Shown here: positions 49,118 to 51,868 of the stretch, piece by piece
Position numbering within the stretch: position 1 is the stretch's first letter
Layout of the letters: every line of letters begins with the position of its first letter
Assembly (NCBI GenBank): GCA_030447525.1
Contig: JAUJOR010000001.1
Span: forward strand, 487,466 to 551,465
Source: Chloroflexota bacterium
GTDB taxonomy: Bacteria > Chloroflexota > UBA11872 > UBA12225
Length of the DNA: 64,000 bases
Direction of reading: 5' to 3'
Notes under the pieces: model-generated
The model's input: the letters and a program-made list of their open reading frames with translations, nothing else
Told to the model about the DNA's origin: nothing
Database searches by the model: none
Position numbers and translations under genes: made by a program

Positions 49118-49444
49118 GTGCCGCTGCCGTCGTTACCCACCACCGTGGCCGCCGAGGCCTATTTGATCTTGAGCGCGGTGCTCTTTGTGATCGGTGTGCT
49201 CGGCTTCCTGATCCGCAAGAACGCCCTGACGGTGTTCATGTCCGTGGAGCTGATGCTCAACGCCGTCAACCTCTCGTTCGTTGCTTTTGCCCGTCAGCTC
49301 GGACACTTCGACGGCCAGATATTTGTCTTCTTCGTCATGGCCGTGGCCGCTGCCGAGGTGGCCGTGGGACTGGCGATCATCGTGGACATCTTCCGCAGCC
49401 GGCACAGCGTGGACATCGATGACGTCAGCTGGCTGCGGGGCTAG
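49118..49444 (+). CDS. nuoK: NADH-quinone oxidoreductase subunit K
   Basis: A 108-residue, three-helix subunit. [25 protein letters not shown] contains the essential Glu of TM2; [22 protein letters not shown] follows with the second Glu. The GTG start at 49118 follows GGAGGAGGGAG; a longer upstream frame is not needed. Confidence 0.95.
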
Positions 49445-49445
49445 A

Positions 49446-49500
49446 ACGTTCCTGTGAGGATGGCGCACCACGTTTCCTGTGAAGATGGCGCACCACGTTT
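49446..49500. repeat. Tandem 24/25-bp duplication between nuoK and nuoL
   Basis: The unit ending GATGGCGCACC is present at 49446-49469 and 49470-49494 (differing by one insertion and one G/A change), with a third partial copy (ACGTTT) to 49500. The following 180 bp to nuoL hold no other feature. Confidence 0.7.
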
Positions 49501-49684
49501 CATCCCCCGCCGGTGCCCGGCAGGGCATGACCGATTATTCAGGGAGTCATTCGCTCGTTCTGATGGGGGCCTGTCCCGGCGGCGGTGGGGCCGGACAGAT
49601 TGAAAGACCCTTACTCATGCCCAGAGCGACGCGCGCCGGCGACGCCCTGCCGGCTGCCCGCTCCCCCAGGGAGGAGACACGGCC

Positions 49685-51868
49685 ATTCTAGAACTACTCT
49701 GGCTCGTCCCGGTTCTGCCCCTGCTGGGGGCGCTGATCAATCTCTTCTTCGGTCGTCGCCTCCCCCGAGCGCTGGTGGCGACAGTGGCCGCCGGGGCCGT
49801 GTTGGGGGCTTTCGTCGTCGCCGCACTGGCGGTGACGGAGTACCTGAGCGGGGACACGGCGGAGCCCTTCCGGCAGCATTTGTATCCCTGGATCGCCTGG
49901 GACATCGGCGGGCGTACCACGCTGATTGCAGCGGCGGGTCTGCTGCTCGATCCCCTGGCCTGCGTCATGGTGCTGGTGATCACCGGCGTCGGCTTCCTCA
50001 TTCACCTCTACTCGGCAGGGTACATGGGCCACGACGCCGGCTTCGGGCGCTTCTTTACCTACCTCAACCTGTTCACCTTCTCTATGCTTCTGCTCGTCCT
50101 GGCGGACAACTTCCTGCTGATGTTCGTCGGCTGGGAGCTTGTCGGCCTCTGCTCGTACCTCCTGATCGGCTTCTGGTTCGAGCGCCCCTCGGCTGCCTCG
50201 GCCGGCAAGAAGGCCTTTGTGGTCAACCGCGTGGGGGACTGGGGCATGCTGGTGGCCCTGTTCCTGATCTGGAGCACGTATGGGACGTTCCAGTTCTTTG
50301 GCCAGCGGACCGGGGCGCTGGCATCTGCGGGCGTGCTGGACGATCCCGGGCGCATCCTGACCGACGGCTCGGTGGCCCTGGCCATCGCCCTGCTGCTGTT
50401 CGTCGGCGCCACTGGAAAATCGGCCCAGGTGCCCCTGTACGTCTGGCTCCCGGACGCCATGGAAGGCCCCACCCCCGTATCCGCCCTGATCCACGCCGCC
50501 ACGATGGTCACGGCCGGGGTGTACATGATCGCTCGCACCCACAGCCTCTTCTTGCTGGCCCCCGAGTCCCTCGTGGTCATCGGGACGATTGGGGCGCTGA
50601 CGGCCGTGTTCGCCGCCACCATCGGGCTGGTGCAGACGGACATCAAGCGAGTGCTGGCCTACTCCACCGTCAGCCAGCTGGGCTATATGTTCCTCGCCCT
50701 GGGATCTGGGGCGTTTGCCGCCGGCATCTTCCACCTGATGACGCACGCCTTTTTCAAGGCCCTCCTCTTCCTGGGGGCCGGCTCGGTGATCCACGCCCTC
50801 AACGACGAGCAAGACTTGCGGCGCATGGGCGGGCTGTGGCGCTATCTACCGGTCACCGGCCTGACGTTCATCATCGGCTGGCTGGCGATTATCGGCCTGC
50901 CCCCCTTCGCCGGGTTCTTTAGCAAAGACTTGATCCTGGCCAAGACGTTCGAGCGGGGGCTGGAAGAGCCGTGGTACTTCGTGCTCTACGGTATCGGCCT
51001 GCTGACCGTGGCCCTGACCGCCTTCTACATGTCCCGCCTGGTCTTCCTGGCCTTTTTCGGGCAGTACCGCGGGGCCATGACCGCTCCCGGTATCACCCCA
51101 ACGCAGGCGGCCATGGCCCCCGAACACGAGCCGGCGGCCGCCGTCCCCGCGGGGCTATCGATGGGGCACAATCCCATTACCCCGAGCGCCGCGAGCGCTC
51201 CGAGCGCACATGACACTCACCGCAGCGACGGGCACGACGTCCGTGACGCTCCGGGGCATGGCGGGCGCACCGGGCGCCCACACGAGTCCCCTCCCTCGAT
51301 GCTTATCCCCCTGGTTGTCCTGGCCCTCCTCTCTATGGTCGGAGGCTGGGTGGGCATCCCGGCGTTCATCTCGGACGCCGTGACCGGGGGACATGCCACG
51401 GGGACTCCCTTCGAGCAGTTTCTGGCCCCTTCCGTGGGCGGCCAGGAGGGGGCAGCGGCCACGGCGGGGCACGCCCTGGACGTCACCACGGAGTGGATCC
51501 TGACCGGGGCGTCGGTGGGGATGGCCGGGCTGGGCGTCCTGGTGGCGGCTATGCTGTACCTCGCCGGCGTGCCCAATCCATCGTCTCTCGCCGGCGCCTT
51601 GCGGGGCCCCTATACCTGGCTGCTCAACAAGTGGTACGTTGACGAGCTGTACCAGGCCCTTATCGCCCACCCCGGCGCCCGGCTGGCCTCGTTCCTGGCC
51701 GCTTTTGATCTCGGAGTGGTGGACGGGATGGTCAACGGCGTGGCCCGCCTGGCGCGGGGCACGGGGGGGGTGCTGCGTCAGCTCCAGTCCGGCTACGTGC
51801 GAGGCTACGCCGTGACCATGCTCATCGGGGCGTTCTGCGTGCTGGCCTACTGGGCCTTCCGCACCTAG
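49685..51868 (+). CDS. nuoL: NADH-quinone oxidoreductase subunit L, predicted AUU start
   Basis: A 727-residue antiporter-like subunit. The first in-frame ATG/GTG/TTG is GTG 49775, after helix 1; homology starts earlier, with ILELLWLVPVLPLLGALINLFFGRRL. That segment begins at ATT 49685, preceded at 8 nt by GGAGGAG, and the frame has a stop at 49601-49603, so an AUU start is predicted. The core shows VTGVGFLIHLYSAGYM, WELVGLCSYLLIGFWFE, KSAQVPLYVWLPDAMEGPTPVSALIHAATMVTAGVY and the long C-terminal helix. A His/Asp-rich loop is inserted (residues about 485-540). Confidence 0.93.
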   Translation: MLELLWLVPVLPLLGALINLFFGRRLPRALVATVAAGAVLGAFVVAALAVTEYLSGDTAEPFRQHLYPWIAWDIGGRTTLIAAAGLLLDPLACVMVLVITGVGFLIHLYSAGYMGHDAGFGRFFTYLNLFTFSMLLLVLADNFLLMFVGWELVGLCSYLLIGFWFERPSAASAGKKAFVVNRVGDWGMLVALFLIWSTYGTFQFFGQRTGALASAGVLDDPGRILTDGSVALAIALLLFVGATGKSAQVPLYVWLPDAMEGPTPVSALIHAATMVTAGVYMIARTHSLFLLAPESLVVIGTIGALTAVFAATIGLVQTDIKRVLAYSTVSQLGYMFLALGSGAFAAGIFHLMTHAFFKALLFLGAGSVIHALNDEQDLRRMGGLWRYLPVTGLTFIIGWLAIIGLPPFAGFFSKDLILAKTFERGLEEPWYFVLYGIGLLTVALTAFYMSRLVFLAFFGQYRGAMTAPGITPTQAAMAPEHEPAAAVPAGLSMGHNPITPSAASAPSAHDTHRSDGHDVRDAPGHGGRTGRPHESPPSMLIPLVVLALLSMVGGWVGIPAFISDAVTGGHATGTPFEQFLAPSVGGQEGAAATAGHALDVTTEWILTGASVGMAGLGVLVAAMLYLAGVPNPSSLAGALRGPYTWLLNKWYVDELYQALIAHPGARLASFLAAFDLGVVDGMVNGVARLARGTGGVLRQLQSGYVRGYAVTMLIGAFCVLAYWAFRT

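Follow-up and report, generated by a model that had tools for sequence, protein, structure and literature searches.

The window analyzed here is a stretch of 64,000 nucleotides from the draft genome of a Chloroflexota bacterium (36 contigs, hereafter G000). It contains nuoL, the gene for NADH-quinone oxidoreductase subunit L, inside a nuo operon, with nuoK located 5' of nuoL and nuoM-type and nuoN-type ORFs located 3' of it in the ORF listing. The search for nuoL in relatives covered 11 genomes of the order, among which G004 represents another genus of the same family (f1), G001 and G005 form genus g2, G002, G006, G007, and G008 form genus g3, and G009 and G010 belong to another family (f2). 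The features of the nuoK-nuoL region, in window positions, are:

49145..49444, + strand: nuoK, the gene before nuoL, from the ORF listing and its conserved C-terminus; GTG start at 49145 deduced from the translation, TAG stop at 49442-49444
49474..49544, + strand: one copy of a roughly 70-nt dispersed repeat that has seven more long copies elsewhere in the genome, at 85-91% identity
49601..49603, + strand: TGA stop in the nuoL frame
49670..49676, + strand: Shine-Dalgarno sequence GGAGGAG (core AGGAG 49672-49676), 8 nt before the ATT and kept in G004, G009, and G010
49679..49681, + strand: ACG in the nuoL frame at codon -2 relative to the ATT, rejected as start
49685..49687, + strand: ATT, probable nuoL start codon, on the basis of position, Shine-Dalgarno sequence, relatives, gene-finder ranking, and codon changes
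49685..51868, + strand: nuoL coding sequence as read from the ATT, 727 amino acids (NF005141, PF00361, PF00662)
49775..49777, + strand: GTG, the first canonical codon in the nuoL frame, rejected as start because helix 1 would be lost, it has no Shine-Dalgarno sequence, and it is not conserved

The initial annotation had described a nuoL frame with a stop at 49601 and no ATG, GTG, or TTG before 49775, and every coordinate checks out: none of the three codons occurs between the stop and the GTG, which is codon +30 counted from the ATT. Helix 1 of NuoL (LLWLVPVLPLLGALINLFF), which had been placed in this interval, is indeed encoded there, immediately 3' of ATT 49685, and NuoL homology begins at that point. 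The protein read from the ATT scored 728 bits against the equivalog model NF005141 (cut-off 556) over residues 3-724, with NuoL residue 3 at model position 3. Among solved bacterial NuoL-type chains, the best matches paired, from their residues 3-8 onward, with the ATT reading from residues 3-10 onward. The score above the cut-off and the setting inside the nuo operon identify the protein as NuoL. A His/Ala/Pro/Ser-rich loop at residues about 466-530 (window about 51080-51300) is skipped by the match in the solved NuoL chains. The 16S 3' end GGATCACCTCCTTT was found in the G000 genome. GGAGGAG does stand 8 nt before the ATT, as first reported, but its description as a perfect Shine-Dalgarno sequence was slightly generous, since only the core (A)GGAG(G) matches the anti-Shine-Dalgarno sequence exactly.

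An alignment of the nuoL 5' region from relatives had been proposed as a check on the ATT start, and its outcome strongly supports ATT 49685. ATT was found at the equivalent column, without gaps, in G000, G004, G009, and G010, which together represent three genera and two families, with AGGAG at 8 nt (G000), 7 nt (G004), or 6 nt (G009 and G010) from it. At this column, ATG is found in genera g2 and g3, and GTG or ATG in other families of the class. Among nuoL loci from outside the order, an ATG, GTG, or TTG was present between 12 codons upstream and 6 codons downstream of the ATT column in 98 of 98. In G003 the search returned solely a second, more distant nuoL; this second gene (on contig C15 in G000) has its canonical start one codon further on.

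The distribution of the ATT bears directly on whether the codon could be an assembly or consensus error for a true ATG. The two codons differ by one base, and G000, like the other three ATT genomes, is a draft assembly. However, a miscall would have to recur identically at one codon in all four genomes, which span three genera and two families, and third codon positions elsewhere in the stretch are strongly diverged among these genomes. This recurrence in two families shows that the ATT is no sequencing slip, and we consider the probability of such an error close to negligible.

Substitutions between G000 and G004 were used to judge whether the region between the ATT and the first GTG is translated. 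Codons 1-30 showed 12 synonymous and 6 non-synonymous changes, with the ATT itself unchanged, and codons 2-30 gave a dN of 0.116 and a dS of 1.59 (dN/dS about 0.07). This pattern indicates that codons 2-30 of nuoL are translated and under purifying selection at the protein level. It also argues against translation from a downstream GTG (49775 or 49799), which would produce a NuoL without helix 1 and leave the ATT untranslated or irrelevant. These GTGs are canonical, standard gene callers would pick one of them (as the ORF listing does), and the GTG at codon 39 (49799) is common to all four ATT genomes. Yet the latter is an ordinary codon of a recurring valine that lacks a Shine-Dalgarno sequence in the window copy, and GTG 49775 lacks one too and is not matched by a GTG in the aligned column of G004, G009, or G010. 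Moreover, the alignments to both solved NuoL chains and NuoL models begin at residues 3-10. Selection on codons 2-30, the missing Shine-Dalgarno sequences, and, for 49775, the lack of conservation led us to rule out both GTGs, a start at either being highly unlikely.

Codon usage points in the same direction. ATT accounts for 9.8% of isoleucine codons in G000 and 24.8% in G009, and ATC for 87% and 70%, respectively; since ATT is the less used of the two, keeping it rather than ATC is itself a mark of a start codon. A start further upstream is impossible in G010, because an in-frame TAG lies 15 codons upstream of the ATT and no canonical codon occurs from there to codon +25. G009 has ATG and GTG codons in the stretch upstream of the ATT, and its close relative G010 does without them. 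In G004, a TTG at codon 4 could in principle be used as start, which is a point against the AUU reading, but it lies 16 nt from the Shine-Dalgarno sequence.

Initiation could also take place at the in-frame ACG two codons before the ATT, since ACG is a near-cognate codon and is present at codon -2 in G000, G004, G009, and G010. However, its distance from the AGGAG core is just 0-2 nt (0 in G009 and G010), too near for normal initiation, and the ATT lies at 6-8 nt. In addition, an ACG-containing stretch 5' of the start is also present in relatives that have an ATG (G006, GGACGAACATG) or a GTG (L021, AACGACCGTG), and the ACG is thus not tied to the missing ATG. ACG 49679 was ruled out on its spacing from the Shine-Dalgarno sequence, and we regard it as a very improbable start.

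To rank non-canonical starts across genes, we used a gene finder based on a phase-specific Markov model that was trained on long ORFs and had no knowledge of nuoL; its score compared, for every gene, the fit of a near-cognate start plus Shine-Dalgarno sequence with that of the best canonical start. The loci surveyed amounted to 843 kb in G000, 370 kb in G009, and about 0.26 Mb in G004. In G000, nuoL took 3rd place among 575 genes, and in the independent ranking for G009 it was 2nd among 265. Of 739 internal ATT codons in the 843 kb of G000, just 11 (1.5%) have AGGAG or GGAGG at 5-9 nt before them, as do 17 of 981 (1.7%) in G009. The combination of ATT 49685 with its Shine-Dalgarno sequence is therefore more than chance.

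Altogether, these comparisons indicate, with a probability of about 0.9, that the AUU start of nuoL is real, old, and conserved. In the NuoL tree, G009 and G010 are sister to the whole of f1, and G000 and G004 (96/93) are sister to g2 plus g3 (100/100). Because the ATT genomes fall in two places, the AUU would either be ancestral in the order, with ATG restored once in the common ancestor of g2 and g3, or have been gained twice.

The gap between nuoK and nuoL differs in length among these genomes. It spans 240 nt in G000, more than in the relatives, having been enlarged by the repeat copy at 49474-49544, and both the ATT and the Shine-Dalgarno sequence outlived this insertion. The gap is 20-26 nt in the ATG genomes. 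In G004 just 11 nt separate the nuoK stop from the ATT and the nuoK TAG overlaps the Shine-Dalgarno sequence (TAGGAGG), which makes coupled re-initiation from nuoK to nuoL possible in that genome. No Rfam family matched an RNA element in the nuoK-nuoL gap or at the nuoL start, and the start region folded no better than shuffled sequences (z 0.6).

In the mechanism that we propose, the strong Shine-Dalgarno sequence 8 nt upstream would set the weak AUU codon at 49685 in the P site, and the initiator tRNA would read it as (formyl-)methionine, giving the full-length 727-amino-acid NuoL with helix 1. Pairing between AUU and the initiator tRNA would be imperfect and compensated in part by the Shine-Dalgarno sequence, with an output below that of AUG. 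IF3, which is encoded in the G000 genome, would when abundant lower AUU initiation further, so that NuoL synthesis would be held low and track IF3 activity. We infer this weaker initiation and its further reduction from known biochemistry, from which the expected IF3 sensitivity follows.

Several genes with starts of this kind have been described. The infC gene of S. aureus starts with AUA. In E. coli infC starts with AUU, through which IF3 regulates its own synthesis, and in Streptomyces with ATC (PMC5472188). Like nuoL, E. coli infC has its AUU in a Shine-Dalgarno context and is expected to be discriminated against by IF3 (PMC5472188, PMC13009471); unlike infC, nuoL does not encode an initiation factor, so an autogenous loop would be absent, and the IF3 dependence of nuoL is a prediction. 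The Streptomyces sigR gene starts with GTC, at a position that is conserved in many species and misannotated, and is repressed by IF3 in experiments (PMC5472188). It resembles nuoL in not being infC and in having a non-canonical start that is conserved and preceded by a strong Shine-Dalgarno sequence (AGGAGGTG in sigR), but nuoL encodes a structural membrane subunit and its codon is AUU. In S. aureus and relatives, the conserved starts of cvfC1 (AUU) and ccpN (AUA), both with strong Shine-Dalgarno sequences, came to light by ribosome profiling; their output is about 10-30% of that of AUG, and S. aureus reporters gave roughly a tenth to a third (PMC13009471). These Firmicutes genes encode a small putative zinc-finger protein (cvfC1) and a transcription factor (ccpN), whereas nuoL, from a different phylum, encodes a subunit of complex I. 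In nuoL, a canonical start able to give the full protein is absent, a near-cognate codon that follows a strong Shine-Dalgarno sequence marks the homologous N-terminus, and this codon is conserved at the orthologous column. Judged by these features of its sequence, nuoL would join infC, sigR, ccpN, and cvfC1 as a new member of the established group of genes with IF3-discriminated starts.

The initial annotation had also proposed that the AUU, as in infC, would make NuoL synthesis sensitive to initiation stringency; this second part would follow only from what is known of IF3. The ATT has outlasted the divergence of G000 and G004, whose synonymous sites are saturated (dS 1.59), although a single change to ATG restores a strong start. 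This suggests either that the pressure to improve the start is weak or that the start is actively kept. A real but non-regulatory AUU would be a slightly weak start tolerated by drift, in which the strong Shine-Dalgarno sequence compensates and NuoL output is slightly lower. The long survival of the codon speaks against it, but the sister clade g2+g3 has a plain ATG at the column, which marks the AUU as dispensable, and near-cognate starts seem to occur elsewhere in the lineage, in infC (CTG, seven f1 genomes) and urtB (ATC, G000 and G004). Because of this sister clade and these other genes, tolerance is the more cautious reading, and we lean slightly towards it. A regulatory role for the nuoL AUU, argued from the biochemistry of IF3, seems unlikely by comparison. 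The same holds for the wider proposal that the AUU ties the synthesis of a complex I subunit to IF3, so that the state of initiation sets the amount of complex I, with infC and urtB in the same IF3-responsive set, which we regard as doubtful. The candidate starts in these two genes are:

L140 1126-2442 (also L139 and L142-L146), - strand in L140: infC fusion gene, candidate CTG start
L182 11932-12825 (also L209), - strand in L182: urtB, urea transporter permease (TIGR03409), candidate ATC start

In family f1, infC encodes a fusion in which a Gly/Pro-rich linker connects a treble-clef zinc domain (PF13451) to IF3. The zinc domain begins, in seven f1 genomes, at a CTG located 7-8 nt after AGGAGG, AAGGAG, or AGGAG, and the canonical codons upstream of it are not conserved between genera. 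In these seven genomes infC appears to start at CTG. A link between the nuoL ATT and this fusion found no support, as f2 has the ATT without the fusion and g2 and g3 have the fusion with ATG. The infC genes of G009 and G010 (L147 and L148) lack the zinc domain; one start candidate in them is an ACG 8 nt after AAGGAG. As for urtB, the ATC is found in both G000 and G004 at one shared column, and in G004 AGGAGG lies 7 nt upstream of it. The first canonical codon does not occur before codon +11 in G000 and codon +17 in G004. urtB appears to start at ATC in both genomes.

To our knowledge, near-cognate start codons have been recognized in very few bacterial genes, since gene callers permit just ATG, GTG, and TTG; automated annotation would remove helix 1 from NuoL here. 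The probable AUU in a core respiratory, proton-pumping subunit of two families suggests that near-cognate starts can persist in essential metabolic operons, and comparative alignment of start columns can reveal them. If IF3 control were true, it would couple respiration to the machinery of translation initiation. The ATG sister clade (g2 and g3) provides a natural control for the nuoL AUU.

Across 103 gene pairs (G000 versus G004 or G009), nuoL and urtB were the genes accepted as having no canonical start in both members. In the other flagged pairs that were inspected, homology extended beyond the true start and canonical starts lay slightly further on. The G004 copy of urtB (L209/L237, contig C258) contains two in-frame TAG codons exactly opposite CAG (Gln) codons of G000. 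General recoding of TAG as glutamine in G004 was rejected, with just these two TAG/Gln sites among 14,340 aligned residues and nuoK ending at TAG; decay or sequence error is likelier. An ATC start was also considered for a gene at position 342567 of contig C10 in G000 (L166 2567-2650), initially guessed to be dprA-like, and was set aside, as its first approximately 28 residues match repeats scattered genome-wide and relatives align only from residue 14. The gene is conserved in the order and has no canonical start before codon +57; its original start may have been lost to such a repeat.
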